A stretch of DNA of 64,000 nucleotides, taken from contig CAMEWO010000001.1 in assembly GCA_945946665.1 (NCBI GenBank), positions 124,001 to 188,000 of the forward strand, given 5' to 3'. The notes beneath the pieces are model-generated. The model made no database searches and was not told where the DNA came from. It worked only from the letters and a program-made list of their open reading frames with translations. Each line of letters opens with the position of its first letter. Position 1 is the stretch's first letter. Shown piece after piece: positions 10,529 to 43,345 of this stretch. A program made the translations under genes and the position numbers. Origin of the DNA: an uncultured Eubacterium sp. (GTDB lineage: Bacteria > Bacillota > Clostridia > Lachnospirales > Lachnospiraceae).

Positions 10529-11851
10529 CTATTTTTTGGAATTACGCCGTTCAAATTCATCCAGTATTTCCATGGTTGCTTTCATATACTGGGGATATTT
10601 ATCCATTATCCTTTTTATATTGGTCTTTGAAGACTGGATTCTCTTCTCATTATACTCAATCTGCTCACGGATTTTCTGTCTTCCCACTGACAGGTCATGT
10701 CTTATCTCCACCATCTCGTTATGGTTATACAAAGCCTTTGCCTGGGACAGCCATACCAGGCTGTCATTCATTCCAAGCTTATTCAGCTTGCCAAGCAGGT
10801 CATTCTCTGCCTCATTCAAGCTTGCCGTCATCCTTAAGATTTCCTGCTGTTCTGCCTTCATCTCCAAATAACACTGATATTTCCTTGAAAGCTCATCAGC
10901 ATCATTGACACGGAACTTAGTGTACTCATAATCAAGCACATTGGAAGTATTAACAAACTTAATCTTGGTCTTATTGAGAAGATTAGTTGCCTTATTAAGC
11001 TTTATCTCCGTTACAGCAACTTCCCGGCGGGTGTACCGCATTAATGCAAAGGAGCCTAATGCCATGGCTGCTCCTATTACAGTAACTATGAAAAACACCA
11101 GAATATTCATCTGATTTTCAGAAGCAATGGTAGCCACAAGAAATACACAGTAGACAATAGCAAAACATGCAAGCATAATAATGCAGCTCTGCCTTATATT
11201 AATCTGGCGTTTCTTAAGACTTCTTGCCTCCATCCTGAGAGACATCTGTTCTCCCTCCAGCATCCTCAAGTCATTCTTCAAAGCATCATAATATTCTTCT
11301 TCACTGGCTATGTATTCAATCATCTTTGGAATCTCTTCTTCATAGGTTTCCATCCGATGATATGCATTGTTGGAAAGCTTTGCCTCACCTGATTTTACAA
11401 TTCTTCTGTCAACAGTAAGGTTGTCCACCTTTTCTGCCAGATAGGCAATCTGCTGTTTAAGAACCTCGGGTGCATTCTCAAAAAGCTCAATATCCTTAAA
11501 ATGCTCTGTTATATTGTTATATTCAACCATAACCTCATCAATATGATGGGTTGCATCCTCCATTACTTCACACTGGCCTCTTATGTACTCAATCATATCA
11601 GGCTCTGAGAAGTATGAAAGATTAACATTCTCCAGGGTCTGATGCTGCTTCTTCCACTCCAGGTATTCCTCGTCTGCATCCTGGGAATCCTCTTTTAAAG
11701 ACCATTCCTTCCAGAAGGAAGATTCCGGATTCATTCCATTATCATCTTTATTATGGTAATTTTCCAGATATCTTTCATATTCTTTTTCACTTATATCATC
11801 TGAAGAATATATATCTTTTATTTTATTCTTTATCTTACCGATTAATCCCAT
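10529..11851 (-). CDS. Membrane-anchored coiled-coil protein of unknown function
   Basis: I do not recognise a named family. The protein of about 440 residues has an acidic N-terminal region, long helical stretches rich in Glu, Lys and Leu (about 100-215), a pair of membrane spans (about residues 221-243 and 249-271 in this numbering) and a second helical region (about 280-440) ending in basic residues. The two charged arms would both lie in the cytoplasm with a short outside loop. I chose the ATG at 11851, with GGA seven bases before it; a GTG twelve bases upstream (11863) is an alternative. It is the last gene of the DUF5717/DUF5716/TPR unit and probably its membrane anchor. Confidence 0.7.
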   Translation of the reverse strand: MGLIGKIKNKIKDIYSSDDISEKEYERYLENYHNKDDNGMNPESSFWKEWSLKEDSQDADEEYLEWKKQHQTLENVNLSYFSEPDMIEYIRGQCEVMEDATHHIDEVMVEYNNITEHFKDIELFENAPEVLKQQIAYLAEKVDNLTVDRRIVKSGEAKLSNNAYHRMETYEEEIPKMIEYIASEEEYYDALKNDLRMLEGEQMSLRMEARSLKKRQINIRQSCIIMLACFAIVYCVFLVATIASENQMNILVFFIVTVIGAAMALGSFALMRYTRREVAVTEIKLNKATNLLNKTKIKFVNTSNVLDYEYTKFRVNDADELSRKYQCYLEMKAEQQEILRMTASLNEAENDLLGKLNKLGMNDSLVWLSQAKALYNHNEMVEIRHDLSVGRQKIREQIEYNEKRIQSSKTNIKRIMDKYPQYMKATMEILDEFERRNSKK

Positions 11852-11871
11852 ATCTTTTTCCACTCTGTCAT

Positions 11872-12693
11872 CTATGATTTATACTTAAGATACTGCTGTT
11901 CCCACTGGTTCAATATAGAAGAAACACTGCTGTAATAGCTTCCAATATCTGATTCATCCTTATGCTTGTCAATGTCTGCCATCTCCCTGTATTCATCGCT
12001 ATATCTTGCATTGTCCATAAGTGTTTCCAGTTCCTTTTTAACCACATATTCCAGTTCTGTGGCATCCTCCCGCTCAATTATGTTGTCACCGAGAGCCATC
12101 CTTCTGGCAGCTATGGCACATTTTTTAGATTCATCATGCTGGCTTATCTTATATGCCTGGTTAAAATATGACTCTGCCTGGTCATATATAAACAGCCTTG
12201 CATAAGCAACACCCATATTATGATATACCTTGGCATAAAAATAAGCAGGAAGTGTAGTATCAACAGGATAATCCAGAATTTTCCCGTAATTTCTTATTGC
12301 ACTATAAAAGCAGCCATTTTCCAGATACGTATCTCCCCTTGTCTTAAGCCTTTCGCACACGCTCTGGGAATTCAGTGTGGAAAGTACTTCCTTAATGGCT
12401 TCAATCTCATCTACTGTATAATAATCCACATACATAAACAGTGTTATTACCATCTCAGTAAGACTGCCACCGTTATCCTTTAACTGCTTAAGCCTTGCTG
12501 ACAGTTTGACTTCGCCTGTCTCTTCGCCTATGAAATTGATAAGACTATCACTAAAGAAATCCTTGCTTATGACATATATATTGTTATACACAAGGTAGCA
12601 CAGTTCCTCCAGGGTATATATTCTTACCCCCATATCCCTTATATGATAAGGACGGACTGCCTCTTTAGTTCTACACAATATCAAACTGCTCAT
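11872..12693 (-). CDS. TPR-like helical repeat protein of unknown function
   Basis: The 273-residue protein has no signal peptide. An N-terminal region (1-110) is followed by helix pairs resembling tetratricopeptide repeats: residues 115-145 (RGDTYLENGCFYSAIRNYGKI) and 150-190 (VYHNMGVAYARLFIYDQAESYFNQAY), with the TPR spacing of small, large and aromatic positions. TPR domains bind peptide ends or partner proteins. The start overlaps the stop region of the upstream ATPase-like gene by 23 bases, with AAAGG before the ATG, so the two are translationally coupled. It is probably an adaptor in the four-gene unit. Confidence 0.7.
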   Translation of the reverse strand: MSSLILCRTKEAVRPYHIRDMGVRIYTLEELCYLVYNNIYVISKDFFSDSLINFIGEETGEVKLSARLKQLKDNGGSLTEMVITLFMYVDYYTVDEIEAIKEVLSTLNSQSVCERLKTRGDTYLENGCFYSAIRNYGKILDYPVDTTLPAYFYAKVYHNMGVAYARLFIYDQAESYFNQAYKISQHDESKKCAIAARRMALGDNIIEREDATELEYVVKKELETLMDNARYSDEYREMADIDKHKDESDIGSYYSSVSSILNQWEQQYLKYKS

Positions 12694-13888
12694 TAATTAC
12701 CTTTCCGGAACTCTTGACAAAATCACCAAAGCCCTTATCCCTAATAGTTACGTTACATTTATTATCTGCTGTAAAATTAAATTCAACATCCAGCCTTGTC
12801 ATCTTACCCTGCCGGTATGGAATTCCACTTACATCTATAGTCTCCGTATATTCCTGTTTTCCATTGCAGGGCATCATGTACAGCTTTATCTCGTTAAGGT
12901 CCTCTGCAATAAACTGATATTTTCTTGAGGCTGTATACCAGTTGGTGCCAGGCTTTATAACCCTTAATCTCTTAGGCTTTCCCCTCTCCACAATATCCAT
13001 CTCTATGCCTGTGGCAATTCTGTTGTGGCAGGCAATAATCATGTGATTCTGGGACATAGGGTTAAGTTCTTCATATCCACAGAATGCAGCACCTTTTACA
13101 TATATATTCTGACCTGCAAATACTTTCCTGTGATTGCACAAAAACTTTGTCAGTTCCTGTGGAAAACCTTCTACATCAAATCCCCGTCCTGTAAGATACA
13201 CAGAAGCAACATAGTGGTCTGTAAATATTTCCTGCAGCCACTCAATAATCTCTGCTGAAACCTGGCTTAGGGGCAAATCCCTGTTGCCTGCCCGGTTAAC
13301 AGTATCAGAGGCAAGAATATAACTGTTCTCCATGATTACTATTTTGCCGCCCATCTTTTTATCACTGCAAAGGTAACAGTGCATACCCGTCTCCTGGTAA
13401 TCAAGCAGCATTACCCCTGGAGAATACAATTCTTTTTTCTGGTTGTAAGCATAGTATACATAGGCTTCCTCATGGCTTATGACTCTCCACTGCTGGTCAG
13501 GAATGTTGAGTTTTTTCATTATTACACCAATGCTGTCTAAAAGTTCAGAATTAAAATCATACACTGTCAAGGCAATCATTCCAACTTTAATTCTGCCTGA
13601 AGTCTTCTTTGCCTGTTCAATCATTGCCGTAAAGAAGCTGCAGATATCCTCCAGCTGCCCCGAGTAACCCTCCCTGATAATCTGTGGCCATCTGTCAGCA
13701 GAAACAGGATTTTCCTTAAAACTCCTGCCATCAGAAAATGTTACGTTGCCTGATGTAAGACCTGTCTCGTCAAAGTAACTTACCATAGAAACATCATTTT
13801 GAATATCAATTCCTATGATAAGACCATTGCTGCCAGTGCCTTTAATCATTGTATTATTATTATTTACTTCTCTGCTGTAACCCTCCAT
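12671..13888 (-). CDS. Actin/Hsp70-like nucleotide-binding protein (DUF5716-type)
   Basis: The 405-residue protein looks like a divergent actin-Hsp70 superfamily ATPase. IIGIDIQND near residue 25 fits the phosphate-1 loop, LLDYQETGMHCYL near residue 175 the phosphate-2 loop, and SVYLTGRGFDVEG near residue 249 the adenosine loop, followed by KGAAFCGYEEL. The last 120 residues look like a beta-rich domain similar in place to the Hsp70 substrate-binding part. I recall such proteins as DUF5716, but no search was run. AAGGGG precedes the ATG. It lies between the giant DUF5717-type protein and the TPR protein, which suggests an ATP-driven assembly or chaperone-like role. Confidence 0.7.
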   Translation of the reverse strand: MEGYSREVNNNNTMIKGTGSNGLIIGIDIQNDVSMVSYFDETGLTSGNVTFSDGRSFKENPVSADRWPQIIREGYSGQLEDICSFFTAMIEQAKKTSGRIKVGMIALTVYDFNSELLDSIGVIMKKLNIPDQQWRVISHEEAYVYYAYNQKKELYSPGVMLLDYQETGMHCYLCSDKKMGGKIVIMENSYILASDTVNRAGNRDLPLSQVSAEIIEWLQEIFTDHYVASVYLTGRGFDVEGFPQELTKFLCNHRKVFAGQNIYVKGAAFCGYEELNPMSQNHMIIACHNRIATGIEMDIVERGKPKRLRVIKPGTNWYTASRKYQFIAEDLNEIKLYMMPCNGKQEYTETIDVSGIPYRQGKMTRLDVEFNFTADNKCNVTIRDKGFGDFVKSSGKVINEQFDIV

Positions 13889-13937
13889 CTTTAGCCCCTT
13901 ACTTTACTATCAAACAAATAAAAAACCAAATTACAAG

Positions 13938-16900
13938 TTATATTGGCTTAAAATACTGGTCAGTAACATAGTTCTGAACACAGTATCCATGCATAAGCTT
14001 TCTCATTGTAGCAATATCATGAAGTTCCCTGCTCGCCAGCATATCATTAATATAGTCAAATCTTCCGTTGTTGCCCTCTGTGTTAATTGTATTATTCACA
14101 ACATTATACACCTGGCTTTTTTTAACCTTATTTCCATACTCTTCAGTAAAATAATAGGTCAGACTTTCCCCATAGAAACAGGTAAAGCTCTTCACAAATA
14201 CACCGCCACACACTGTCATTATTTCAGTATGCTCATTCTCATCCTTGGAGAACCTGAAATGAATTAATACCTTTGCCTCAGGATTGCCATAGTATTCAAC
14301 AATGGTCTGGTCAAGAATATTATAAGGCAGAGGCAGGACATCTCCGTAGTTCTTGAAGAATTCAAAGCACTTATTCTCCCTGCAAAGTTCATTCAGAAGC
14401 TTTCCTGCAATCTTTAACTGCTGCTGTGACAGATCCTTAGTTTTTGAAGACCAGAATTTCAATAATGAAAGCTTACATATATCAAGCACATCCCTGTCTT
14501 CTTCAAGCTGGTTATATATGGCCTTGAATACAATCTCATTAACTTTCTTATGCTTCACAAAATATAAAAAGCTGTGGTATGCAATATAGGCATCAATTAT
14601 AAGCTTCTTTCCGCCTTTGCTGTAATACGAAGTAAACACTTCTGTCATTCTTCCGTTATGCTGTCCGGTAAAAAGAGTCTGGGCGATAATTCTTTCCTCA
14701 AGCTTTTCACTATCAACCTTAAAATTCTCGCAGGCTTTCCATACTTCGTACATCTGGTCATTAGTACCATTGAACATTTCGGACATATATCCCAATGTTT
14801 CTTCATTATATTTCTTATCGGCAAATATATGATAACACAGGAAAGACAGGCTTTCATCCGGTTTATCCTTAAGGCATTCCAGTTCATGCCGCATAAACTT
14901 AAACAGGAGACTGGTTGATACTCTCTGGTATCCATACTGGTCAATGAGACTTCTTGCATCAGTGTACTGTTCCTGTCTGATACATACCTCAATAAGCTTC
15001 ACCGCATCAGATAAATCGAGATTGTCTCTGTTAATAAGTTTAAGACATTCTGAGAACCCATCACCTTCAAAAAACTCATTATAATAATTAATCAGCCATG
15101 AATTAAGCTTTATCTTAGTATCTTTTTCAATATTAGCAAGGTTAATAAGATTCTTTACATTATCTAAGATATCTGCTGTTTCCTGATGAATTCCACTGCC
15201 AGCCTCAAACCTGTAGAAGTCAAACAATGTGTTATTCACCTTCATTGCTATAAGCTGGTCAAGAAGTGAATTATCGCTGAATACCTTTTCCTTCTCGTAA
15301 TTGATTGTATCCTTATGCAGGTGTCCTTTCTTGTCTTCAAATACTAATGAACAGCCTTCCGTGTACATAGGAATGAATACAAGACCATCTTTAACAGGAA
15401 ATCTCTCAACCTGTCTTATTTCTTTATGTTTCACAAGAACGTAATCGATGTTATCAGAATATATCTTAACCCTGTAGGTAAACATTAGCTTAAGCATATA
15501 TGAAGCTGTAGAATCATCCAGCAGTCTTTCATTCCATATATACCTGTAAATTACCAGAAGGTTATCATCAACATTCCCCAGCTTTAACTGTTCGTATCCA
15601 AACTGCTCTATATGGGGTCTGTAGCTGTCCATTATCTCAAGATTATCAATCTCATTAGTAAGAATATCAGCAAATAAATATGCCTTGTCTGCATAATCAA
15701 GACCACTGTCATATGCAAAAAACATCAGGACTATCTTAGGAAAACGTATATACTTATCCTTGTCAATACTCTTAACATAGTACTCATACAGTCTGGTTAT
15801 TCTTAATCCTCTTAAGATTGCTTTCTCGTAGATATCGCGGCACTCCGGTCCGAACAAACCATTCCTTATCATCTGTGACGCCAGTATATTCAGATTATCA
15901 TCTGTATCGAAATCCTTGTATATCAGCTTCATTATCTCTATCATCTTAAGAGAAGCGACACGCTCGCTGGCAATTACTTCTGCTATGTGCTTTGCCAATG
16001 GCTCACTTATTATGCTGTTACGGCAGCCATACATAATTACCTGTAACTCAAATCTATTAAGAACCCTTAAAAGCATTGGCTGTGAATTAAGGATATGCAC
16101 AGCCTCAAAGTACATTACAGGACTTTTGCATCCTGCCTGGTATGCATCCTTGATTCTTATAAGCTTGGCACTCTGATTATGATTAAAGTCCTTATCTATA
16201 TAGAATAAGAGCCATAGTATTCTCCAGTCATCATTACCATTCTCATAATACTGTTTAATAATGCCTGCCGCCTGGCTGGTATAGGAACTGTCTTTCTTGG
16301 CAAGGGAATTAACATATAGATAATAACAGTACAATACAACATCTTTCTGGTCTATCTCTGACCGTGCACTTTCAAGAAGCCATCCGCACTCCTCTGCCTG
16401 TCCCATTGCCACCATAACCTGTGCCTGAATCAGTTTGTAGTAAGGTGTATCTGTCTCGTAACCCCTTAATCTATGAATCAGCTTATTAGTTGTCTCAATC
16501 CAGTCTGATGAATCGATTCGTTTCATTCTGTAATTAAGGTAGCACCTTGTTATATCCATTATTATATTCCTGTGATGTCTCAAAGGAGAAGGATTACTGG
16601 TATCATTCTGCTTTGCAGCCACTACCTCATGGTTAAGTGTCTGGTTAAATGTATTAAGCCTGATTCTTCCATAATTCAGGCCTCCATGAAGCTCACTGCC
16701 TGATACAATATATGGCAGCTCACTCATGGTTCCTGTAAACTTATCTGATGTAACAGTATCACTATATATCTTTAAAAATGAAGGTTCTGCCTGTACAGAC
16801 ACTTCTGTATATCCCCAGGTACTTCTGTTAAGAATAAGAGAATATGATGTATTGCCATCATCCCCATCACAGTGGTTTAATTCTGTACTTACAGACAGCC

Positions 16901-17468
16901 TTAAAGGCTCCTTCTGATGGGCAGCCACAAGAAATTCCTCAATAGCCTCTGGCTTATTAAGATTCATGGAAAGTAAATCATAGAGACTTGAAAGGCTGTT
17001 ATCCCCCTTGATAAAGTAATCCTTAAACCTGTCATCCCTGAATATACTCTCTGCTTCTTCCGGAGCTTTCTGTACAAGATTAGTGAAATCAAACAGACTG
17101 CTGGCAGAGCCAATACTTGTGTCTAACGACCTAAAGACACACCTGAATTCATAAGCCGCCTGGTACTCACCACCGCTGCTTACAATCTCAAATGTGCCTG
17201 ATAAAGTATCATTCTCATGCATTCCAGATGTATCCACCTGATATTCAATTCTTCCTTCTGTTCCAGAAAACATATTCTCTTTGAGCCTTACCCGCTCATT
17301 AGAGGACCATATTACACCTTTTACAGACTCATTGGATGTGTATTCAAATGATAAATCTGTTATTGAATCTTTAGGGACATCAATCTGGTTAAAACTGACA
17401 TCCACATTTACCTTTGGTTCCTCATACCTGAACATGCCTCTGGCTAATCTTTTCAGATAATCCTTCAT
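13938..17468 (-). CDS. Giant beta-domain and helical-repeat protein (DUF5717-type), function unknown
   Basis: The 1176-residue protein starts with a short basic helix followed by beta-rich segments (about 20-115 and 190-290) that look like immunoglobulin-like or Hsp70-substrate-domain-like sandwiches. A long alpha solenoid follows (about 300-1050) with many aromatic-rich helix pairs of TPR character, and a final beta region (about 1060-1130). No signal peptide or membrane span is visible, so it should be cytoplasmic. I associate it with DUF5717, which I recall as co-occurring with DUF5716, but without a search. GGAGG lies 12 bases before the ATG. rarA ends seven bases upstream. Confidence 0.7.
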   Translation of the reverse strand: MKDYLKRLARGMFRYEEPKVNVDVSFNQIDVPKDSITDLSFEYTSNESVKGVIWSSNERVRLKENMFSGTEGRIEYQVDTSGMHENDTLSGTFEIVSSGGEYQAAYEFRCVFRSLDTSIGSASSLFDFTNLVQKAPEEAESIFRDDRFKDYFIKGDNSLSSLYDLLSMNLNKPEAIEEFLVAAHQKEPLRLSVSTELNHCDGDDGNTSYSLILNRSTWGYTEVSVQAEPSFLKIYSDTVTSDKFTGTMSELPYIVSGSELHGGLNYGRIRLNTFNQTLNHEVVAAKQNDTSNPSPLRHHRNIIMDITRCYLNYRMKRIDSSDWIETTNKLIHRLRGYETDTPYYKLIQAQVMVAMGQAEECGWLLESARSEIDQKDVVLYCYYLYVNSLAKKDSSYTSQAAGIIKQYYENGNDDWRILWLLFYIDKDFNHNQSAKLIRIKDAYQAGCKSPVMYFEAVHILNSQPMLLRVLNRFELQVIMYGCRNSIISEPLAKHIAEVIASERVASLKMIEIMKLIYKDFDTDDNLNILASQMIRNGLFGPECRDIYEKAILRGLRITRLYEYYVKSIDKDKYIRFPKIVLMFFAYDSGLDYADKAYLFADILTNEIDNLEIMDSYRPHIEQFGYEQLKLGNVDDNLLVIYRYIWNERLLDDSTASYMLKLMFTYRVKIYSDNIDYVLVKHKEIRQVERFPVKDGLVFIPMYTEGCSLVFEDKKGHLHKDTINYEKEKVFSDNSLLDQLIAMKVNNTLFDFYRFEAGSGIHQETADILDNVKNLINLANIEKDTKIKLNSWLINYYNEFFEGDGFSECLKLINRDNLDLSDAVKLIEVCIRQEQYTDARSLIDQYGYQRVSTSLLFKFMRHELECLKDKPDESLSFLCYHIFADKKYNEETLGYMSEMFNGTNDQMYEVWKACENFKVDSEKLEERIIAQTLFTGQHNGRMTEVFTSYYSKGGKKLIIDAYIAYHSFLYFVKHKKVNEIVFKAIYNQLEEDRDVLDICKLSLLKFWSSKTKDLSQQQLKIAGKLLNELCRENKCFEFFKNYGDVLPLPYNILDQTIVEYYGNPEAKVLIHFRFSKDENEHTEIMTVCGGVFVKSFTCFYGESLTYYFTEEYGNKVKKSQVYNVVNNTINTEGNNGRFDYINDMLASRELHDIATMRKLMHGYCVQNYVTDQYFKPI

Positions 17469-20530: not shown

Positions 20531-21166
20531 CTATTGTTCTATCTTACCATCACTGATTCTAATTATCTCATCTGAAAGATACTCAAGTTCTTCAGCATCA
20601 TGACATGCAATAATACATATTGCACCACGTTCTTTCTGTTCTTTTAAGATTTCTCTTACCTGCATTGCACCGCTCTCGTCAAGTGCATTAATTGGCTCAT
20701 CAAGAATTACTATATCAGGGTCTTCCATGACTGCTGCCGCAATTCCAAGACGCTGTTTCATTCCCAGTGAATATTTTCTGTAAGTCCGCTTATCATTACA
20801 GTCAAGACCTACTTTACAAAGGGTTTCACATATTTTGCTTCTGTCAATCTTCTTCTGGATGTCGGCAAGCACCTCCAGATTCTTCAATCCTGTATAGCCA
20901 GGAATAAATGCAGGGTTTTCTATCAATGCTCCAACACTTCTTGGAAATGATATCTGTTTGCCAAGTGTCTCTCCGTTAATCACTATACTTCCGCTTGTTG
21001 GAGATATAAGTCCGCATACAGCTCTCATAAGCATGGTTTTACCTGAACCATTCTTGCCTTTAAGCCCGTAGACATTTCCTCCTCTTAAGGTCAGGTTAAC
21101 ATTCTTAAGAACTTCTGAACCTTTAATCTTCTTGCAGTAATCCTTGATTTCTATAATATTCTCCAT
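20531..21166 (-). CDS. ABC transporter ATP-binding protein
   Basis: The 211-residue ATPase has Walker A GKNGSGKT (37-44), a Q-loop region near ISFPRSVGALIENPAF, signature LGMKQRLGIA (about 133-142), Walker B DIVILDEP and the switch histidine in ACHDAEEL. It lies last in an operon with two or three membrane partners, a lipoprotein and a secreted protein. The closest functional type is the peptide/lantibiotic-immunity or bacitracin-exporter ATPases. It should energise the permeases encoded at 21187-24118. The substrate is unknown. Confidence 0.9.
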   Translation of the reverse strand: MENIIEIKDYCKKIKGSEVLKNVNLTLRGGNVYGLKGKNGSGKTMLMRAVCGLISPTSGSIVINGETLGKQISFPRSVGALIENPAFIPGYTGLKNLEVLADIQKKIDRSKICETLCKVGLDCNDKRTYRKYSLGMKQRLGIAAAVMEDPDIVILDEPINALDESGAMQVREILKEQKERGAICIIACHDAEELEYLSDEIIRISDGKIEQ

Positions 21167-21186
21167 AGTGTCTCCCCTCTATGCAA

Positions 21187-21987
21187 TTATATAACATCAT
21201 ATTTTCTAAAGAACATATAACCAACAAACACTGATACAACTGATATAACTATATCAAATATCAAACTAATTCCAAAACTTATCCCATCACAATTTACCGG
21301 AATCATCCTGTATGCCATCATATAATTACCCGGCATAAACCACTTCATATAAAATGCCGATGTTATATATATAACCATAACTACAATAAAACTGACAGAT
21401 GGTAAAACAATAAATTCCATTGTCATTTGTAATAAAGAGATTGCAATAGATGTAACAACAGGAAGTATTATAATCATTAAAAATAACTGCTGTGTATCTA
21501 CATTTCCTGTTATCTCTGAGGAAAGCATTACCCTTACAGCGTCATCATGAATGCCTATTACTTGCCCTATCCCCGAAACATCAAAATTATCATAATGAAA
21601 TATACATATCATTACAACTCCCGCATAAAGTAATGTGTAATAAATACATACACTACATACATTCCATATACAAGAGGTTACCCACCATCTTAATCTTCCT
21701 GCATATCTCAATAGTCTATTCTTTCCAAAGCCATGAAGGTCTTTAACCGCATGACCACCAATAATAAGCGCTAATACAATGTTTATTAATAGATAACATA
21801 CAGGTACTTCAAACAATTTGCCACCTATGTCAGGATGAAACTCTTTCATTCCTTTAAATAAAAAAATCAAAGCGTCACCAAATGATGCAGGTGAAGTAAG
21901 CCGTGTATGTAAACTCATTCTATCAAACCATATAAAATACATTTCAGAAGTAACAGTTCCTATAAGAAATGGTACAATATACTTCAT
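21187..21987 (-). CDS. ABC-2-like membrane protein, transporter permease
   Basis: About 266 residues with roughly six hydrophobic spans, including segments around ICYLLINIVLALIIGG, SVCIYYTLLYAGVVMICIF, LFLMIIILPVVTSIAISLL and ISLIFDIVISVVSVFVGYMFF. No ATPase or solute-binding motif is seen. The start at 21987 (MKYIVPFLIG) overlaps the upstream stop as ATGA; an ATG 20 codons earlier overlaps more and lacks support. Together with the next two membrane proteins it probably forms the channel of the ABC transporter. Codon use is AT-richer than in the flanking housekeeping genes. Confidence 0.75.
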   Translation of the reverse strand: MKYIVPFLIGTVTSEMYFIWFDRMSLHTRLTSPASFGDALIFLFKGMKEFHPDIGGKLFEVPVCYLLINIVLALIIGGHAVKDLHGFGKNRLLRYAGRLRWWVTSCIWNVCSVCIYYTLLYAGVVMICIFHYDNFDVSGIGQVIGIHDDAVRVMLSSEITGNVDTQQLFLMIIILPVVTSIAISLLQMTMEFIVLPSVSFIVVMVIYITSAFYMKWFMPGNYMMAYRMIPVNCDGISFGISLIFDIVISVVSVFVGYMFFRKYDVI

Positions 21988-22718
21988 ATGTCCGACTCCT
22001 TTCTGAGCATATCCTTCTTTCTTAACGTAAACAATCCTACAATCCAAATAATAGACATTACAGCTATAGGAATAACGACATTATTAACCAAGCTATATCC
22101 ATTCAAATATAAATCAGATGGATTCATAGATATTTTTGAAAAAAATAATCCATCATCTACATATCCAAACATCTCAACGACTACCATGGCAATCATGCCA
22201 ACATAACCATACACAGGCAGATTAAACCACCACCAGAATAACATTATCATCATACCCATCACAAAAATTTCGGAAAAAACCACAATCAAATATATAGATT
22301 GGATTATCCATGTATCTATATAAGTATCTACATGTCTTAAAAAAAACCTCCATGCATTACTGTAATCATCTGTCCAGTTACATTTATATGAATACCCACT
22401 GACAAATGCATAAACTGTGCATATTATAAAGGAATAAATTGTTATTATAATTGATTCTACAGCAATTTTTCTACTTATTCTCCCCCACACCTTTTTCATA
22501 TTATTTTCCAATAAAATGATACTATCTCTGTATTCATATTTCATGTAATAAACAATATATAATCCTGAAATAAAAATTACTATTGCAACACTATAATACT
22601 GTGCATAACAATACACATCATTATAGCAGTAGTTAATCTTGTCCGCGTTAAACATATATATGAAAATATATATATAAGATATAGTAACAAAAATTAACAT
22701 CACAGTTCTTTTAATCAT
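21984..22718 (-). CDS. Polytopic membrane protein, ABC transporter permease-like
   Basis: About 244 residues with hydrophobic spans at the start (TVMLIFVTISYIYIFIYMF), near 50-70, 95-120, 150-175, 180-205 and 225-240, and aromatic-rich loops. I set the start at the ATG overlapping the stop of the upstream gene (ATGATTAA); an ATG three codons earlier is equally possible. It is coupled by ATGA to the next permease. Sequence similarity to a named family is not evident to me; the operon context is the reason for the call. Confidence 0.65.
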   Translation of the reverse strand: MIKRTVMLIFVTISYIYIFIYMFNADKINYCYNDVYCYAQYYSVAIVIFISGLYIVYYMKYEYRDSIILLENNMKKVWGRISRKIAVESIIITIYSFIICTVYAFVSGYSYKCNWTDDYSNAWRFFLRHVDTYIDTWIIQSIYLIVVFSEIFVMGMMIMLFWWWFNLPVYGYVGMIAMVVVEMFGYVDDGLFFSKISMNPSDLYLNGYSLVNNVVIPIAVMSIIWIVGLFTLRKKDMLRKESDI

Positions 22719-23286
22719 GAGATACATCAAACTCCAATCTCTTAATTGAAGGGTACCACCTGTATACCAGATAGAACGTCTCTTCATCTAACCTATCAAT
22801 CCACTTTATTTTAATTAATGATGGAGCTGTCACAACTGTTGATAATGTAAACTGTTGTGTTTCTCCTGGTTGTATGGTTGATTTATTCTTTTTTCCTTCT
22901 TCTAGCAGTACCCCATTGTACACTCCACTTTTTTCGCCATTCATCCAAAATGTGTCAGTTTCATATGAAATACTCCGCTGTGAAACATTCTCAAATTTCA
23001 ACTTAAAAACAATATATCTAGTTCTATCAGAATTGGATTCCTTTTCTGTAAAAGCACTGGCTTCTCCATATTCATTCTTGTAATTGTCATATGTATATAT
23101 CCTGCACTCTAGCGGAGTTATAACCAATCCATCTTCATTCGCCGAATTATCAAAAGTATATGTGTACATTACAGGTTCTGGAAATCTATGATTAATATCA
23201 TATATTAAGTATGCAGCCAATGAAATCAATATTATAATTATTCCTACAACTGATATAGTAATCAATTTTTTCTTATTAATACACAT
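22711..23286 (-). CDS. Membrane-anchored extracellular beta-domain protein (DUF4352/DUF5028-like)
   Basis: About 191 residues: a basic N-terminus, one membrane span (LITISVVGIIIILISLAAYLI) and an outside domain with alternating beta-strands. YIVFKLKFENVSQRSIS and QPGETQQFTLSTVV resemble the telokin-like DUF4352 type, found in lipoprotein-like partners of peptide ABC transporters. The start is at MCINKKK (23286), overlapping the upstream permease by 11 bases; the earlier in-frame ATG would overlap by 59. It may sense or sequester the transporter's extracellular substrate. Confidence 0.6.
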   Translation of the reverse strand: MCINKKKLITISVVGIIIILISLAAYLIYDINHRFPEPVMYTYTFDNSANEDGLVITPLECRIYTYDNYKNEYGEASAFTEKESNSDRTRYIVFKLKFENVSQRSISYETDTFWMNGEKSGVYNGVLLEEGKKNKSTIQPGETQQFTLSTVVTAPSLIKIKWIDRLDEETFYLVYRWYPSIKRLEFDVSHD

Positions 23287-24118
23287 CTGATTTAACCCCA
23301 TTTTGAAAGTATACAACTGCCGATAGTAAAGCAACTACTACCAACACACTTATAACTGGAACAGGACGTACAATATACCCCTGTGCAATATCCACCAACT
23401 TCATAGGACTTATGTTAAAATGGTATGTTTTTACAGTGTATTGTGATATTACATTAATTCCATACCATAAAACAAATGGCACCATACTTAACATGAATAT
23501 ATTATCAACATAATATGAAGCTGCCAATGCCGTCGTTGCAAACGCTCCTGCATACAAGAAATTAATAATAAGATATATAAATATATATACCAATGGTTTA
23601 CTATAATAGAGTTCCTGTAGCATCGCTCCACCTGAAATATATTGTCCATTCCTAATTGGATTTAATGCTGGCAACATACATGCTGCAATAAAAAGATTAA
23701 AAATATATGGCACTATAACTGTTATACCCGCACTGACAAATGTTACAATATACTTTGCAATCAGATAATTTATCTTCTTAGTTTTTATATATACATTCTT
23801 AACATACCCTGATTTAACATCCATATGATAAGATAATGCATGTGGCAGCATTGCAAGTACTGGGAATATTGTGATAAATATCTCTTTGTACAAACTTCCA
23901 GTATTCATACTCATACTAAACATATAAAGTGAAAATGGTTCACCTACTTTTCCACTGTAATATTTTAATGGATTAACTGCTCTCGGATATACTTCTCCAA
24001 TTATCTGCATTATTGCAATAACAAATCCTATCAATAAAGATATATACACCAGTCTACTCTTTAGCATCCTTTCCCATTCTATCTTTAACCATACTCTCAA
24101 TTTTCTTTTGCCTCCCAT
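23276..24118 (-). CDS. ABC-2-type permease
   Basis: The 280-residue protein has the layout of ABC-2 permeases: a basic amphipathic N-terminus (RVWLKIEWERMLKSR), a first span (LVYISLLIGFVIAIMQII), a large loop, then five spans including YIVTFVSAGITVIVPYIFNLFI and VISVLVVVALLSAVVYF. A segment DVKSGYVKNVYIKTKKINYLIAKY between spans is the type of coupling helix that contacts the ATPase. It lies between the lipoprotein and the extracellular-domain protein in the LytTR-controlled operon. No clear ribosome-binding site is seen before the ATG. Confidence 0.75.
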   Translation of the reverse strand: MGGKRKLRVWLKIEWERMLKSRLVYISLLIGFVIAIMQIIGEVYPRAVNPLKYYSGKVGEPFSLYMFSMSMNTGSLYKEIFITIFPVLAMLPHALSYHMDVKSGYVKNVYIKTKKINYLIAKYIVTFVSAGITVIVPYIFNLFIAACMLPALNPIRNGQYISGGAMLQELYYSKPLVYIFIYLIINFLYAGAFATTALAASYYVDNIFMLSMVPFVLWYGINVISQYTVKTYHFNISPMKLVDIAQGYIVRPVPVISVLVVVALLSAVVYFQNGVKSDVY

Positions 24119-24148
24119 ATTGCATTATTACAGATTGGTTAATCATTG

Positions 24149-24922
24149 TTATTGTGTTTTCAAATTAAGCTTTATCATATATGTTCCATCTTTAACATCA
24201 TTAAAGCCGTCTCCTAATGAGTTAATATTTACAAACCCTGAAAACATATATATATCATCATTTTTAGAAAATGCTGCTGGAAATAGCATAACCATTAACG
24301 TCTCTATTTCTTCTCCCTCTTTAAAAGTATATAACAAAGCATCTTTCCCCGGATTATCCTTTTTATTGTATTTGTCATATCCTACGCCTTCGGCTCCATT
24401 TATCATATTGTACACATTATTCGACGATTTATTGAATATCTTTGGATTAAAACTCACACGGTTATCTCCTCTCCTCTCGTTTTCTATGTATGTACATTTA
24501 ATTTTCATTTTGACAATAAGATGATTTACATTTCCGCCTTTTCCCACATATCTGCCCATATCATCATAAGATCCCCTTGACTGTTTGATTAGATAAGTTT
24601 TAAATGAGTCGTCTCCTGTTATGGAATCTAACAAACTTAGAGTATCATCAGTTAACCATGACTCTAACACCGTTAGTTCATAGCCACCAGCTGAAATTGT
24701 CTGTCCCTCGCCGACTTCTGAAATCTTTGCATTCTTTCCATTAACCCAGACTATATCTTCCACAGCACCTAATGTTGCTGTAGTAGCTGCATCATTCATA
24801 TTCTTATTTGCCAAGTCCGCCCTGCTTTTGTCAATATTTTCAGCATCTTTGACAGAATAATCCGAACATCCGGTGAATATTACCATACAAATTACAAGAA
24901 GTGTACAAATTGTTTTTCTCAT
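24149..24922 (-). CDS. Lipoprotein of the ABC transporter operon (DUF5027-like)
   Basis: The 257-residue protein has a type II signal peptide ending in the lipobox FTGC with C19 as the lipidated cysteine. The mature part has the SAGGYELTVLESWLTDD segment and beta-strands similar in plan to the DUF4352-like protein downstream. I recall such proteins as DUF5027 lipoproteins but could not check. GAGG lies five bases before the ATG. As a surface-tethered partner it could bind the secreted protein encoded just upstream or protect against it. Confidence 0.65.
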   Translation of the reverse strand: MRKTICTLLVICMVIFTGCSDYSVKDAENIDKSRADLANKNMNDAATTATLGAVEDIVWVNGKNAKISEVGEGQTISAGGYELTVLESWLTDDTLSLLDSITGDDSFKTYLIKQSRGSYDDMGRYVGKGGNVNHLIVKMKIKCTYIENERRGDNRVSFNPKIFNKSSNNVYNMINGAEGVGYDKYNKKDNPGKDALLYTFKEGEEIETLMVMLFPAAFSKNDDIYMFSGFVNINSLGDGFNDVKDGTYMIKLNLKTQ

Positions 24923-24989
24923 CTCAACCTCACTATTTAATACAAAAATAGTAAACTGCTTTAGCCAGAATAAAATCTTAGTAAATTAA

Positions 24990-25418
24990 TTAAATACTAT
25001 CAGGACTCCATAATCCTGTAAAATAGCCATTTCCGTCTCCAGTATGATCGGCTCTTATATATGCATAATCACCATCATTTTCATAAACATAATTAGTCAT
25101 CTTCAACACAGTTCTCTCATAAAATCTATATGGTCCTCCTGTTTCGAATCGTATATTCTCCTGTGAATTCCATCCCCATACATACGCATCATAATAATCA
25201 TCTGCATCTTCAGAATACTGGCAATTCATATATACATAGGAATCATCTTCCTTAATTCTCATTTCAGTAGTTTTCCATCTAGAACCACCGAAATCAAATT
25301 TAAACGCAGTGTCCTGCCAGTTACTTGCCATTGCTGGAATTATTGTTATGCTCATTATTATTGCAAAAGCCAAAAATGCAACAATCATATTCCCTGCTTT
25401 GCTCTTTCTTTTAACCAT
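24990..25418 (-). CDS. Small secreted protein, first gene of the LytTR-controlled operon (DUF2712-like)
   Basis: The 142-residue protein has a clear Sec signal peptide (KRKSKAGNMIVAFLAFAII followed by PAMA-SNWQ). The mature part of about 110 residues is rich in Tyr, Asp, Trp and Gly, with one cysteine. MRIKEDDSYVYMNCQ and DYAYIRADHTGDGNGYFTG suggest a small beta-sandwich. It resembles DUF2712-type secreted proteins, a low-confidence recollection. The ATG at 25418 is fixed by AGGAGG seven bases upstream; the longer frame to 25514 would start inside the promoter. The direct-repeat operator and promoter lie immediately upstream, so it is probably the main product of the two-component system. Confidence 0.7.
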   Translation of the reverse strand: MVKRKSKAGNMIVAFLAFAIIMSITIIPAMASNWQDTAFKFDFGGSRWKTTEMRIKEDDSYVYMNCQYSEDADDYYDAYVWGWNSQENIRFETGGPYRFYERTVLKMTNYVYENDGDYAYIRADHTGDGNGYFTGLWSPDSI

Positions 25419-25470
25419 ATATTTCCTCCTATCGTAATTCATATTTCTGGCTAAAACAGCTCCCAGAAAC

Positions 25471-25499
25471 AGAATACGCCCTCCTTTCATCAATGAAAA
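25471..25499 (-). promoter_or_regulatory. Activator-type promoter of the secreted protein/ABC operon
   Basis: On the minus strand TTTTCA (25494-25499), 17 bases and TATTCT (25471-25476) form a weak promoter, as expected where an activator is needed. An inverted repeat CCTCTTTTCAT-TG-ATGAAAGGAGG overlaps the -35 region. The LytTR-type repeats end about nine bases upstream of the -35 hexamer. Confidence 0.5.
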
Positions 25500-25507
25500 G
25501 AGGGGCA

Positions 25508-25542
25508 GGCACAAACGGTATTGATTTTGGCATAAGCGGTAT
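25508..25542 (-). promoter_or_regulatory. LytTR response-regulator binding site (direct repeat)
   Basis: Two direct repeats ATACCGCTTATGCC (25529-25542) and ATACCGTTTGTGCC (25508-25521) on the minus strand match at 12 of 14 positions and start 21 bases apart, two turns of the helix. This spacing and the ACCGTTTGTG-like core fit AgrA/ComE-type LytTR operators. The site lies between the histidine kinase gene and the secreted-protein gene, directly upstream of the promoter. Confidence 0.7.
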
Positions 25543-25547
25543 TTTTT

Positions 25548-26834
25548 TTAAATTCTTATATCAAAACATATGTAATCTATATCCTCATATATATCTATAT
25601 ATCCGCCATATTTATTAACAATATTACGAACATTAGAAATACCCAGACCATGATTTAATTTATCCTGTTTTGTAGTTTTTAAATCAGGGTTATTACTTAT
25701 AACAGATTCAGATATCTTGTTCTTAATAAAAATATCTAATAAATCATCTTGCATACTAATATTAATCTTTATATCTCTATTATCAATTGAATTGTTCATT
25801 TGAGCTTCTATAGCATTATCAAGCAGATTTCCTATTATAGTACAAATCTCCACATCTGATAGTTTATCAATATTTTTACACACTGACACAGATGTATTAA
25901 TTCCATTTTCTTGACAAAATAAAAGCTTAGAATTAATAACTGCATTGACCACTTTATTATCAGTTCTCACTATCTCATGCATAAGCGGTGTCTGATGTAT
26001 ATACTGATTAACATACTCTCTCGCCTTTTGTTGTCCATACTGCTCATCTTCCAGCAATATGCTTATTGTGTTAAAGTGATTTTTTATATCATGTCTCAAT
26101 CTTCTTGTATGTTCATCTATTGTATATACACTATTCATATACTGTTTCTGCAACTCGTAATCATTTATGGTTTTTAAATAGTTCTGCTCCGCCTGTTGTG
26201 CATCTTTAATCTTATTAACCAGCTTTAATATCATATAGCAATTAAGTATAACGCAAAGGATTCCAATGTATTTATACGCATCATTATCAATGTCACACAT
26301 AAAATATACTATAAGAAGTGATATAACTGCACTAAATGATAATACCGCAACTTCATATTTTGTCATCCTGTGAATGTTAGATTTTACGAAAAAATTTGTT
26401 ATTACAAATTCCGCAAAGCAAATACTTCCAACATTTAAGATTGAGTTATACATAGAACGTTTCTCAGTATAATCAGAAAAAAATACAGCTAATGCAGCAA
26501 TGATACATGTCATTAACATAACCATTATTATGTGAATAAAATTGATTCTGCCTATAATGCATGCAAATATTCCAACAACAACTGTATCCAGCAAGACCAG
26601 TATCCAGAAAGAAGCCCCTAACCAAACAAGTAAATATCCAAATCCAAATAATAAAATAAATACACATATTATGCCAATTTTATACTTTTTTCCGCTAAGG
26701 TCCTCTTTTCCTTCTTTTACTCTCATATAATTGATTATATCAATAGCCATATTCATCATAACAACCTGAAAAATCAATATTCCAAAAATAGACTGTATCA
26801 ATGTGATACTATATTTTTCTATTATTTCCATCAT
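25548..26834 (-). CDS. AgrC-like GHKL sensor histidine kinase
   Basis: The 428-residue protein has six or so membrane spans in residues 1-210, then a helical dimerisation region with the HPK10 phospho-acceptor H248 in RRLRHDIKNHF. The GHKL ATPase domain follows with the N box IGNLLDNAIEA and the G box HGLGISNVRNIVNKYGG. These are the features of quorum-sensing kinases that detect extracellular peptides. It overlaps the response regulator gene as ATGA. The likely signal is a secreted peptide or protein, possibly the product encoded just downstream. Confidence 0.9.
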   Translation of the reverse strand: MMEIIEKYSITLIQSIFGILIFQVVMMNMAIDIINYMRVKEGKEDLSGKKYKIGIICVFILLFGFGYLLVWLGASFWILVLLDTVVVGIFACIIGRINFIHIIMVMLMTCIIAALAVFFSDYTEKRSMYNSILNVGSICFAEFVITNFFVKSNIHRMTKYEVAVLSFSAVISLLIVYFMCDIDNDAYKYIGILCVILNCYMILKLVNKIKDAQQAEQNYLKTINDYELQKQYMNSVYTIDEHTRRLRHDIKNHFNTISILLEDEQYGQQKAREYVNQYIHQTPLMHEIVRTDNKVVNAVINSKLLFCQENGINTSVSVCKNIDKLSDVEICTIIGNLLDNAIEAQMNNSIDNRDIKINISMQDDLLDIFIKNKISESVISNNPDLKTTKQDKLNHGLGISNVRNIVNKYGGYIDIYEDIDYICFDIRI

Positions 26835-38330: not shown

Positions 38331-39461
38331 TTACTTGAAAAATCCCTTTTTCTTGTGCGGTACATCTTCCCCTGTAAGAAGCTTTTCATAATTAACCAAA
38401 GCTTCCTTCTGCTCAGCGGTAAGCTTACTAGGAATATCCACAATTAAAGTAATATAATGGTCTCCTCTGACTTCCTTGTTACGGACTGTTGGCATACCTT
38501 TGCCTTTTAAACGTACATTAGTACCTGAAGCCGTTCCTGGTTTTACCTCGTAAATAACCTCGCCATCAACTGTTCTTACTTTAATCTCCCCGCCTAATAC
38601 CGCTTTTGGATAACTGATTCTCACGTTAGACATGATATTGTATCCATCTCTTCTGAATTCAGGATCCGGGCTTATCATTACTGCAACCAGCAGATCGCCT
38701 CTTGGGCCTCCGTTAATTCCAGGCTCACCCTTACCTTGTATTCTAACACACTGACCATCATCAATGCCAGCAGGAATTGTAACTTCTATGGTTTTTTTAA
38801 CAGAAACATATCCTGAGCCATAACAGTCAGGACATTTTTCCTTAACGATTTTACCTGTTCCCTTACAATCAGGACATGGCTGCACGTTACGTACCATACC
38901 AAAAAGTGACTGCTGGGTGTAGACAACCTGGCCTTTTCCGCCACATTTACTACAGTTTTCTGGAGAAGTGCCTGGCTTGGCACCAGTTCCATGACAGGTA
39001 TTACATGTCTCCTTCAGAATAATATCAAGCTTCTTTGATGTTCCTGTTACAGATTCTGCAAATGTAATTCTTACACTGGTTCTCACATCAGAACCACGCA
39101 TTGGCCCATTACTGTTGCGTCTTCTGCTGCTTGAGCCACCAAAAAGATCACCAAAGATATCTCCAAATATATCACTTCCGAATATGTCTCCCATATTGCT
39201 GAAGTCGAATCCACCAGATCCACCACCTGAACCATCAAATGCTGCGTGTCCAAACTGGTCATACTGACGGCGTTTATCAGCATCACTTAATACTGCATAT
39301 GCCTCAGAAGCCTCTTTAAACTTTGCCTCTGCCTCTTTGTCACCCGGGTTGATATCTGGATGATACTTCTTGGCAAGCTGTCTGTATGCTTTCTTAATAG
39401 CTGCATCATCGGCATCCTTTGGCACACCTAATACCTCGTAATAGTCCCGTTTTTCCGCCAT
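38331..39461 (-). CDS. dnaJ: Chaperone DnaJ
   Basis: DnaJ delivers unfolded clients to DnaK and stimulates its ATPase. The 376 residues show the J domain with HPD (34-36), a Gly/Phe region with [13 protein letters not shown], the four CxxCxGxG zinc repeats (about 145-210) and the C-terminal beta domains. It lies downstream of dnaK but has its own strong promoter (39554-39581) and a hairpin leader, so it can be expressed apart from the hrcA transcript. The ATG has GGAGG eight bases upstream. Confidence 0.96.
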
Positions 39462-39490
39462 TATCTACTTCCTCCATTAAAATCGCCAAT

Positions 39491-39537
39491 AACTGCACAG
39501 ATGTCATAAACAATCGTCCAAGACAATCTGTGCAGTT
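39491..39537 (-). promoter_or_regulatory. Hairpin in the dnaJ leader
   Basis: AACTGCACAGAT (39491-39502) pairs perfectly with ATCTGTGCAGTT (39526-39537), with further GTC/GAC pairing inside. It lies between the dnaJ promoter and its ribosome-binding site and lacks a U-tract, so it is more likely an mRNA stability or thermosensing element than a terminator. That role is inferred. Confidence 0.6.
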
Positions 39538-39553
39538 AAACCATAGCTATATT

Positions 39554-39581
39554 ATTATAAAATTTTTAGAATAATAATCAA
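39554..39581 (-). promoter_or_regulatory. Promoter of dnaJ
   Basis: On the minus strand TTGATT (39576-39581), a 16-base spacer and a perfect TATAAT (39554-39559). It lies between dnaK and dnaJ; no CIRCE element accompanies it. Confidence 0.65.
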
Positions 39582-39593
39582 GTACTACTTTGA

Positions 39594-39625
39594 AAAAAAT
39601 CCCATAATTTACTAAAAATGTTATG
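39594..39625 (-). terminator. Weak terminator after dnaK
   Basis: A short imperfect stem CATAACATTT/AAATTATG is followed on the minus strand by GGGATTTTTTT. The long T run supports termination, but the stem is AT-rich and weak. Confidence 0.4.
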
Positions 39626-39638
39626 AAACAGCCAGTAA

Positions 39639-41564
<1,926 letters not shown>

Positions 41565-42203
41565 TTAGTTAGCAACCTTCACCATTGAATGGCGGATTAC
41601 TGTATCTCTATAAGTATAACCCTTCTCAAACTCCTCAACGATGATTCCCTCACCTGCTGATTCATCCTCCACATGCATTACTGCGTTATGAAGGTCAGGA
41701 TTAAACTCTAAACCAACTGCCTCAATCGGCTTAACTTCAAGGTCCTCAAGCATCTTAATCATCTGCCTGTAAACCATATCCATTCCCTTGGCAAATGGTG
41801 TTTCCTTTTCTTCGTCTGTTATTGACTTGAAGCCTCTCTCAAAGTTATCAACTACCGGCAACAGCTTCTTAATAACATCTGATGCCCCCATCTCAAACAT
41901 TGCAGACTTCTCTTTATCAGTACGCTTTCTAAAATTGTCAAACTCAGCCATCTGACGCTTCACTTTATCCTGTAAATCAGCGATAACAGCGTCTTTTGGA
42001 TCAGAATCATTCCTGCATTCTGCCTGCTCCTCCGCATCACTTGCGTCCTCTGCCTGTACGGCAGAGTCTTCATTCACATCTGCGTTGGAATCAGCTGAAT
42101 TATCCATATTAGAAGCATTATCCTTCTCATCCTTTATATCTTCAACATTCTTTGCTGTTGAATCAGCTTCTTCCTGATTTTTCTTCGACACTTCAATATC
42201 CAA
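41565..42203 (-). CDS. grpE: Nucleotide exchange factor GrpE
   Basis: GrpE releases ADP from DnaK. The 212-residue protein has a long acidic disordered N-terminus (1-75), a coiled coil starting at DLQDKVKRQMAEFDNFRKRTDKEK, and the C-terminal beta domain with GLEFNPDLHNAVMHVEDES and GYTYRDTVIRHSMV, the GrpE signature. It lies five bases after hrcA and is expressed from the CIRCE promoter. Confidence 0.95.
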   Translation of the reverse strand: MDIEVSKKNQEEADSTAKNVEDIKDEKDNASNMDNSADSNADVNEDSAVQAEDASDAEEQAECRNDSDPKDAVIADLQDKVKRQMAEFDNFRKRTDKEKSAMFEMGASDVIKKLLPVVDNFERGFKSITDEEKETPFAKGMDMVYRQMIKMLEDLEVKPIEAVGLEFNPDLHNAVMHVEDESAGEGIIVEEFEKGYTYRDTVIRHSMVKVAN

Positions 42204-42208
42204 CCTTT

Positions 42209-43300
42209 CTAACTTTTCTTAAAGACATCATCCAGCTGGCTCTGTATGGTCTTTAGCTTCTCAACTACTTTCTCATAATCCATACGCTTTGGTCCTATAA
42301 TACCAACCGTACCTCTCATGCCATCCTGAAGTTCATAGGTTGCCGTAACAACACTGCAATCCTTCATAGACTCAACTGGTGCCTCACTTCCTATATACAC
42401 CTGGATGCTGTTCTTCTGGTTTTCATCAGTACTGTCACTGACAAAACTGTCCAGACTGTTCTTCTCTTCCAGAGCATATATAAGTTCACTTGCCTTGGCA
42501 GAATCACTAAGTTCGGGATACTTGAATATATTAGTGGCACCACTGGTATATATCTTAAGATTATCTTCTCCACTAATAGTTTCCACTATGGCATCCACAA
42601 CTTCCTTAACCAGCATTGTGTGCTCTCCTGCCTGATTCTCCATCTTAGAGACAATACTTAAATTCATCTCCTGCAAAGAAAGCCCTGTCAATGAAGTATT
42701 AAGCAGAATGTTAAGCTTAAGCAGATTCTCCTGGCTTAATTCCTCACTCACCGTAATAACCTTATTCCTTATGATGTTTCCCTCCATTACAATGACTGCA
42801 AGGATTTTATGGGATTCAAGACTTGACAGCTGAACGAACTTCAATTTATTGCCCTTAACCTGTGGTGCACTAATCATTGTTGCATAATTAGTGTCCTTGG
42901 CAAGAACCTTAGCAACATTCTGGAGAAGTTCTTCCACCTTATCAACCTTCTTGGAAAGAATCTCTGCCATGGACTCAACATTCTTTTCCCTGTCGCTGAC
43001 TGACTGTTCCCTGTCACTTAAGTCCTGCTCTCTGTGAGCCATCTCCGACTCCTTCTGTTTCATCATATCATCCACATATAGTCTGTATCCTTTATCAGTA
43101 GGAATACGTCCCGCAGATGTGTGAGGCTGTACAATGTATCCCATCTCCTCCAGGTCAGCCATCTCATTACGGATTGTAGCTGAACTAAGCTTTAAATCCG
43201 TATATTTGGAAATTGTTCTTGAACCAACCGGCTCACCTGTTTCAAGATAATTCTTAATAACAGCTTTGAGAATCTTTACTTTTCTCTCATCCAGTTCCAT
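42209..43300 (-). CDS. hrcA: Heat-inducible transcription repressor HrcA
   Basis: HrcA binds CIRCE and represses the heat-shock genes. The N-terminal winged helix (ELDERKVKILKAVIKNYL, SSATIRNEMADLEEMGYI, HTSAGRIPTDKGYRLYV) is followed by the GAF-like core. The ATG at 43300 is fixed by GGGAGG five bases upstream; the frame is open for eight earlier codons. Residues 84-113 form an insertion with near-exact seven-residue repeats (REQDLSD, REQSVSD, REKNVES) between the DNA-binding and core domains, not usual in HrcA. Confidence 0.95.
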   Translation of the reverse strand: MELDERKVKILKAVIKNYLETGEPVGSRTISKYTDLKLSSATIRNEMADLEEMGYIVQPHTSAGRIPTDKGYRLYVDDMMKQKESEMAHREQDLSDREQSVSDREKNVESMAEILSKKVDKVEELLQNVAKVLAKDTNYATMISAPQVKGNKLKFVQLSSLESHKILAVIVMEGNIIRNKVITVSEELSQENLLKLNILLNTSLTGLSLQEMNLSIVSKMENQAGEHTMLVKEVVDAIVETISGEDNLKIYTSGATNIFKYPELSDSAKASELIYALEEKNSLDSFVSDSTDENQKNSIQVYIGSEAPVESMKDCSVVTATYELQDGMRGTVGIIGPKRMDYEKVVEKLKTIQSQLDDVFKKS

Positions 43301-43345
43301 GGCATCCTCCCTTCCAGTTCTCAAAATACATTGTCTCTTGGATTG

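Follow-up and report, generated by a model that had tools for sequence, protein, structure and literature searches.

Four adjacent minus-strand genes, P0001 to P0004, lie at positions 10529 to 17468 of the 64,000-nucleotide (nt) stretch of DNA from an uncultured Eubacterium sp. analyzed here (the window). Their products include members of DUF5717 and DUF5716, two families without an assigned function; a full-text literature search for both names returned a lone mention, of DUF5716 in PMC8115291, a paper unrelated by its title, and no function. What is new here is the link from these families to Hsp70 and to a larger operon. Below, f1 denotes the window's own family (taken to be Lachnospiraceae) and "the order" is the order containing f1; loci that were fetched carry L numbers and genomes G numbers. 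SBD stands for the substrate-binding domain of Hsp70, of which SBD-beta and SBD-alpha (the lid) are parts. The genes and the parts of them that matter here are as follows.

13938..17468, minus strand: P0001, DUF5717_N plus DUF5717 (Pfam), 1176 amino acids (aa), putative scaffold
12671..13888, minus strand: P0002, DUF5716_C (Pfam and family profiles), 405 aa, putative degenerate Hsp70 (pseudo-Hsp70)
13784..13813, minus strand: P0002, putative remnant of the phosphate-1 loop (residues 26-35)
13376..13402, minus strand: P0002, putative remnant of the phosphate-2 loop (residues 163-171)
12677..13042, minus strand: P0002, SBD-beta-like C-terminal domain (residues ~283-404, boundary approximate), with no lid beyond it
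11872..12693, minus strand: P0003, 273 aa, TPR protein (Pfam; best match at residues 154-185) with a conserved part N-terminal to the TPR
10529..11863, minus strand: P0004, 444 aa, GTG start, two-span membrane hairpin protein, accessory
11048..11182, minus strand: P0004, two hydrophobic spans (residues 228-272)

An earlier, sequence-only reading of the window had described these four open reading frames (ORFs), and their coordinates, sizes, and spacing were all confirmed: from P0001 to P0004 the intergenic distances are 49, −23, and 8 bases, i.e., gaps of at most 49 bases and one 23-base overlap. P0001 matches DUF5717_N (E = 2.2e-252) and DUF5717 (E = 4e-91), with 840.2 and 305.8 bits against curated cut-offs of 25 and 25 (PF18984 and PF18983), and P0002 passes the DUF5716_C cut-off (PF18980; 270.5 versus 34.7 bits, E = 1.8e-80). 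The family names given by that reading are therefore correct. Its TPR protein and its two-span protein were also borne out, the former by a match of P0003 to TPR_2 (E = 1.2e-7) and the latter by hydrophobic spans at residues 228-246 and 254-272 of P0004, separated by a short loop; the same scan gave no span in P0001, P0002, or P0003. No Pfam family exceeded its cut-off in P0004, and nothing in NCBIfam exceeded a curated cut-off for any of the four proteins.

A conserved three-gene core

DUF5716_C is present in 145 of 150 f1 genomes (123 of the 126 that are at least 90% complete), nearly always as a single match per genome, and DUF5717_N is present in 147 of 150 (124 of 126). Of the 145 genomes with DUF5716_C, 138 have both genes on a single contig at most 3 kb apart, four have them on separate contigs (G045, G075, G087, and G091), and three had no DUF5717 row listed, of which G183 and G153 do carry DUF5717 and G056 has none. 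At the level of loci, the solenoid (DUF5717), DUF5716, and TPR genes are contiguous in 32 of 33 cases, namely, 31 in the main ORF survey plus L047, whose TPR gene was missed by the ORF caller and recovered by a separate look; the remaining locus, L041, is truncated by a contig end short of the solenoid gene. Five genera (L042 to L046) encode DUF5716 and the TPR protein as a single ORF of 684 to 723 aa, which hints at binding between the two. The conserved system that the sequence-only reading proposed is thus upheld for three of its four genes: DUF5717, DUF5716, and the TPR gene form a real conserved unit. The fourth gene, P0004, is better regarded as optional, since strong matches were found in only 27 of 60 f1 genomes, plus one weak match, a count from which diverged copies could be missing. 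A search with P0002 across genome contigs returned one near-identical locus (L021), and a search with P0001 across viral contigs returned none. As a separate observation, the DUF5716 protein of L047 (positions 895-2454) carries an insert of ~100 residues, an acidic, alanine-rich repeat, in its N-terminal half.

The short gaps between the genes, which had been offered as the reason for them to work together, were rejected as proof of a unit. On the same strand, a rarA-type gene (MgsA_C) lies 7 bases upstream, followed by a D-Ala-D-Ala carboxypeptidase gene, and pheS lies 78 bases downstream, with what we take to be pheT and queA beyond it. Because this closely spaced run extends to rarA and pheS, spacing alone cannot delimit the unit, and its limits are set instead by comparison across genomes. 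Promoter and terminator scans were at chance (48 versus 44.4 [standard deviation {SD}, 6.4] and 8 versus 6.3 [SD, 2.8], respectively). The flanks vary by genus, with rarA and pheST in the window's genus, a valyl-tRNA synthetase gene in L055, a SAICAR synthetase gene in L052, a solute-binding protein gene in L053, and a PHP-domain gene in L031. As the flanking genes differ while the three core genes persist together, mere local synteny was dropped as an explanation.

In draws reaching beyond the order, DUF5717_N occurs in 5 of 398 phylum genomes, all five from f1, and an order-level solenoid profile matched 14 of 245 class genomes, of which the 9 strong matches are all from f1; these draws hold few genomes of the order's other families and so bound the extent only roughly. 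DUF5717_N and DUF5716_C were absent from 14 of 14 control genomes. The five weak solenoid matches, from outside the order (G426, G468, G398, G374, and G305), are partial, covering ~90 to 165 residues at E values of 8e-4 to 2e-9, and may reflect a shared repeat domain.

Hsp70 ancestry, a larger operon, and gene losses

The sequence-only reading had called the DUF5716 protein an actin/Hsp70-like ATPase. By itself, P0002 matched neither PF00012 nor any Protein Data Bank (PDB) chain, and the case from this single sequence was dropped; the link requires family profiles. A profile of 12 DUF5716 proteins from the wider order matched 125 distinct PDB sequences, foremost BiP and DnaK (E = 2.7e-24), and its match to two DnaK chains covers positions 14 to 491 of 508. 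The f1 DUF5716 profile in turn aligned with the order-level profile from end to end (417 columns; probability, 100; E = 2e-51), and even alone it matched DnaK residues 1 to 131 (E = 3.4e-6). On these profile alignments, DUF5716, P0002 included, is a descendant of Hsp70.

The ATPase part of the claim fared otherwise. None of 30 DUF5716 proteins of f1, and none of 20 from other families of the order, has the standard phosphate-1 or phosphate-2 motif, and the five DUF5716-TPR fusions, counted apart, likewise lack the phosphate-1 motif. In the KR.(M/L)G segment, the letters seen most often at the position of Lys are I, V, and L in order-level DUF5716 and a gap, L, and F in f1 (members shorter than 330 aa were dropped from the column counts). 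We conclude from these motifs that DUF5716 probably no longer hydrolyzes ATP.

In addition, f1 DUF5716 lacks a stretch of the nucleotide-binding part. The spacer between the phosphate-2 and adenosine loops measures 142 residues in the window's DnaK and has medians of 145 in Hsp70B (a neighbor in the operon described below) and 143 in order-level DUF5716, versus 70 (59 to 77; n = 29) in f1. Occupancy in f1 is 0.00 opposite residues 241-280 of the window's DnaK, which correspond to residues ~266-305 of Escherichia coli DnaK, in subdomain IIB (offset of ~25, from the position of phosphate-2). GrpE is described as contacting DnaK at residues 51-61 of subdomain IB and residues 255-272 and 276-302 of IIB in PMC10825016, and by this alignment the missing stretch overlaps the GrpE-contacting part of IIB. 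P0002 also lacks most of the stretch opposite residues 41-80 of the window's DnaK. The lid is missing from both DUF5716 groups (occupancy of 0.00 opposite residues 481-540). The SBD-beta stretch appears to be kept: positions opposite residues 361-480 are occupied, also in the alignment between the f1 and order-level profiles.

Elsewhere in the order, DUF5716 belongs to a larger set of genes. Of 116 order genomes, 62 carry DUF5717_N; 11 of these belong to f1 and 51 to other families. We sampled 27 loci from 25 of the 51, typing the genes with local profiles seeded from L023. The operon has a fixed order: a beta-domain gene, the DUF5717 solenoid gene, Hsp70A, a GrpE-like gene, DUF5716, Hsp70B, Hsp70-VWA, the TPR gene, and sometimes the two-span gene, which was added in five of the 27 loci. 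Fourteen of the 25 genomes have the whole run from solenoid to TPR in this order, and the beta-domain gene either precedes the solenoid gene or is joined to it; in L022, both the Hsp70-VWA frame and the TPR frame are split in two. For most of the remaining 11 genomes, a contig end or the limit of the chosen region truncates the run. The exceptions are as follows: G028 has the set scattered over two contigs (L025 and L026), G196 (L068) showed only the two DUF5717 genes within 20 kb, G203 (L073) has extra ORFs interspersed, and G039 (L029) has only the beta-domain, solenoid, and DUF5716 genes.

Pfam matches in L023 support this typing. Its three Hsp70s match HSP70 at E values of 1.8e-77, 2.5e-57, and 2.5e-95 (the last with VWA), the GrpE-like protein matches GrpE (1.4e-14), the TPR protein was confirmed as TPR, and its DUF5716 protein matches both DUF5716_C (1.8e-25) and HSP70 (1.9e-16). 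The phosphate-1 motif is kept in 22 of 22 Hsp70A, 18 of 18 Hsp70B, and 17 of 18 Hsp70-VWA proteins, and the phosphate-2 motif is kept in 22 of 22, 18 of 18, and 16 of 18, respectively. The Hsp70 with a C-terminal VWA fusion (12517-14676 in L023) has orthologues in other order-level loci; to our knowledge, no function has been described for such a fusion.

Comparison with the operon also clarifies P0001, which had been described as a beta/solenoid protein. The N-terminal third of the protein is the counterpart of the separate beta-domain gene, and the remainder is that of the solenoid gene. The solenoid label agrees with weak TPR/PPR matches (E = 0.003 to 0.008), and fold searches with the N-terminal third and the beta-domain gene gave no usable match for the beta label.

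Among the genomes and Hsp70s sampled, none of the genes missing from the f1 locus turned up elsewhere. A profile search of 60 f1 genomes for the dedicated GrpE-like gene gave no match in 58, and the two weak matches (G088 and G089) adjoin dnaK and were taken to be ordinary GrpE. Additional Hsp70s do occur genome-wide in f1, and we sampled 20 of them from 17 genomes, including the window's own second Hsp70. Their phosphate-1 motifs are intact; 19 scored best with the window's DnaK, and one tied between the DnaK and Hsp70-VWA profiles. In a tree from which operon Hsp70 rows shorter than 500 aa were left out, all 20 clustered away from Hsp70A, Hsp70B, and Hsp70-VWA (support, 100/99), and on this placement none of them is one of the operon's three.

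In a second tree of 105 rows, which leaves out Hsp70 rows shorter than 450 aa and DUF5716 rows shorter than 330 or longer than 600 aa (including the five fusions), f1 DUF5716 forms one group (support, 96) whose sister is the DUF5716 protein of the full-operon locus L022 (support, 99), and Hsp70A, Hsp70B, and Hsp70-VWA fall into one group apiece, most of their branches being short. The motif DxGFG was given no weight as a shared mark of Hsp70B and DUF5716, as only 6 of 18 Hsp70B proteins carry it. A further reduction is seen in family f16: G039 has no GrpE-like match genome-wide, whereas G214, G235, and G244 have one, and at the G039 locus unrelated genes follow the DUF5717 genes and DUF5716. 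From its gene content, we read G039 as a second, separate reduction to DUF5717 plus DUF5716.

A proposed reduced Hsp70 machine and comparable known systems

Hsp70 ancestry and reduction of the unit, taken together, are claims that we hold with high confidence on the alignments and gene content above. How the remnant works is an evenly balanced matter. In the explanation that we favor, the unit is a reduced descendant of an Hsp70-based machine in which the pseudo-Hsp70, much like yeast Ssz1, would serve as an immobile holder or adaptor and not as an engine, and we give this about an even chance of being right; the adaptor mechanism itself stands at much the same level. In many families of the order, three Hsp70s with intact loops, a GrpE-like factor, the pseudo-Hsp70, the TPR protein, and the DUF5717 scaffold are encoded side by side. 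In f1, the three Hsp70s and the exchange factor have been lost from the locus, leaving DUF5717, the pseudo-Hsp70, and the TPR protein, with the two-span protein in about half of the genomes. With no ATP cycle, DUF5716 would need no exchange factor. Assembled with the TPR protein onto the DUF5717 scaffold, it may constantly hold, probably with low affinity, a peptide from a partner or client in its SBD-beta, and the two-span protein, where present, would tether the complex to the membrane. The unit is probably not an ATPase but an ATP-independent relic, because the phosphate motifs, the IIB stretch, and the dedicated GrpE-like gene are gone. Its near-universal, single-copy presence in f1 argues for a housekeeping role.

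Several observations weigh against this explanation. DUF5716 largely keeps the adenosine-loop GxGF and the connect-2 GA and often has a Glu two columns away from the catalytic one, so that nucleotide binding may remain; loss of the catalytic Glu was dropped as a mark, since that nearby Glu may be the same residue misaligned. The DUF5716 protein of G039 retains a stretch matching HSP70 positions 229-371, which include IIB, and the losses of the exchange factor and of IIB therefore need not coincide. The DUF5716 branches in the 105-row tree are long, the tree is rooted at its midpoint, and the software cautioned that long branches may be grouped artificially. Finally, the membrane gene that would provide the tether is missing from about half of the f1 genomes.

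Beyond this lies a wider and more tentative scenario, which we think possible but would not bet on. In it, a private, order-level multi-Hsp70 assembly machine would build a dedicated DUF5717 structure rather than serve general folding, and f1 and, separately, at least one other lineage would have dropped the engine and frozen the structure around the pseudo-Hsp70, as a near-universal core in f1. The operon link offers a testable idea of what DUF5716 and DUF5717 do, and the loci grade naturally from complete chaperone sets down to a remnant that lacks the engine. They also open a general question, namely, what use remains for an Hsp70 without ATP hydrolysis, nucleotide exchange, or a lid.

Among the alternatives, a full Ssz1-type co-chaperone, in which DUF5716 hands clients to ordinary DnaK while DUF5717 and the TPR protein position it, is unlikely but fares best. 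The window holds an intact-looking hrcA-grpE-dnaK-dnaJ run, and the retention of SBD-beta without a lid has its precedent in Ssz1. However, Pfam found a J-domain family neither in the four window proteins nor among the nine products of L023, the GrpE-contact surfaces have been lost, and no link between the unit and dnaK is apparent. A purely structural role, with DUF5716 as a folded spacer in a DUF5717/TPR assembly that binds no peptide, we hold to be rather doubtful: it would suit the fast evolution of DUF5716 seen in its long branches and its few invariant residues (9 columns), but it sits poorly with retention of the entire SBD-beta stretch while the lid and IIB were lost.

The unit could also be a conflict (defense) system akin to the GAP1-N2 systems (eLife 2020), whose theme (PMC7159879) comprises HSP70 and GrpE together with a second HSP70 and a fusion of an FNIII protein with DnaJ or TPR. 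The order-level operon likewise brings together HSP70, GrpE, a further HSP70, TPR, and VWA, and of six order-level proteins scanned, four, namely, the three Hsp70s and the TPR protein, weakly match two PADLOC candidate models (4e-5 to 2e-9). PADLOC nevertheless matches none of the four window proteins, and Pfam finds neither the defining GTPase nor a DnaJ or FNIII family in these or among the nine L023 products (the beta-domain gene being without a usable fold match). The near-universal presence in f1, with nearly always one match per genome, and the chromosomal site beside aminoacyl-tRNA synthetase genes also speak against defense, which we regard as improbable. The version of the sequence-only reading, in which ATP drives an active chaperone-like machine at the membrane, can be set aside as very improbable, for although the Hsp70 ancestry and the adjacent TPR and membrane proteins accord with it, the phosphate motifs are absent, the IIB stretch is missing, and the membrane gene is patchy; that interpretation is thus partly supported overall, with the ancestry retained, the ATPase activity abandoned, and the membrane location weakened.

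The housekeeping Hsp70 system and the putative Hsp70 relic share one window: the hrcA-grpE-dnaK-dnaJ run (38331-43324; named by inspection, with DnaK identified by an Hsp70 search) lies 21 kb from the unit. Elsewhere in the window, an ABC-transporter ATPase gene and several membrane-protein genes at 20531-26834 have a guanine-plus-cytosine content of 0.31 to 0.34 versus ~0.39 around them and were possibly acquired.

Compared with the DnaK/GrpE system (PF00012), DUF5716 shares the HSP70 match at the order level, the similarity to BiP and DnaK chains, and an SBD-beta stretch, but it differs in lacking the phosphate motifs and the lid and, in f1, the IIB stretch, and the unit has neither a J-domain protein nor GrpE. 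The closest parallel is Ssz1. As described in PMC7083937, Ssz1 binds ATP without hydrolyzing it and partners with a J-protein at the ribosome, whereas DUF5716 has no phosphate loops and its partner would be a TPR protein. In other respects, the two are alike: Ssz1 has no lid and a complete SBD-beta, its partner completes and occupies its SBD, and DUF5716, also lidless and with SBD-beta, is likewise fused to a partner protein in some genera and may be bound to it in others.

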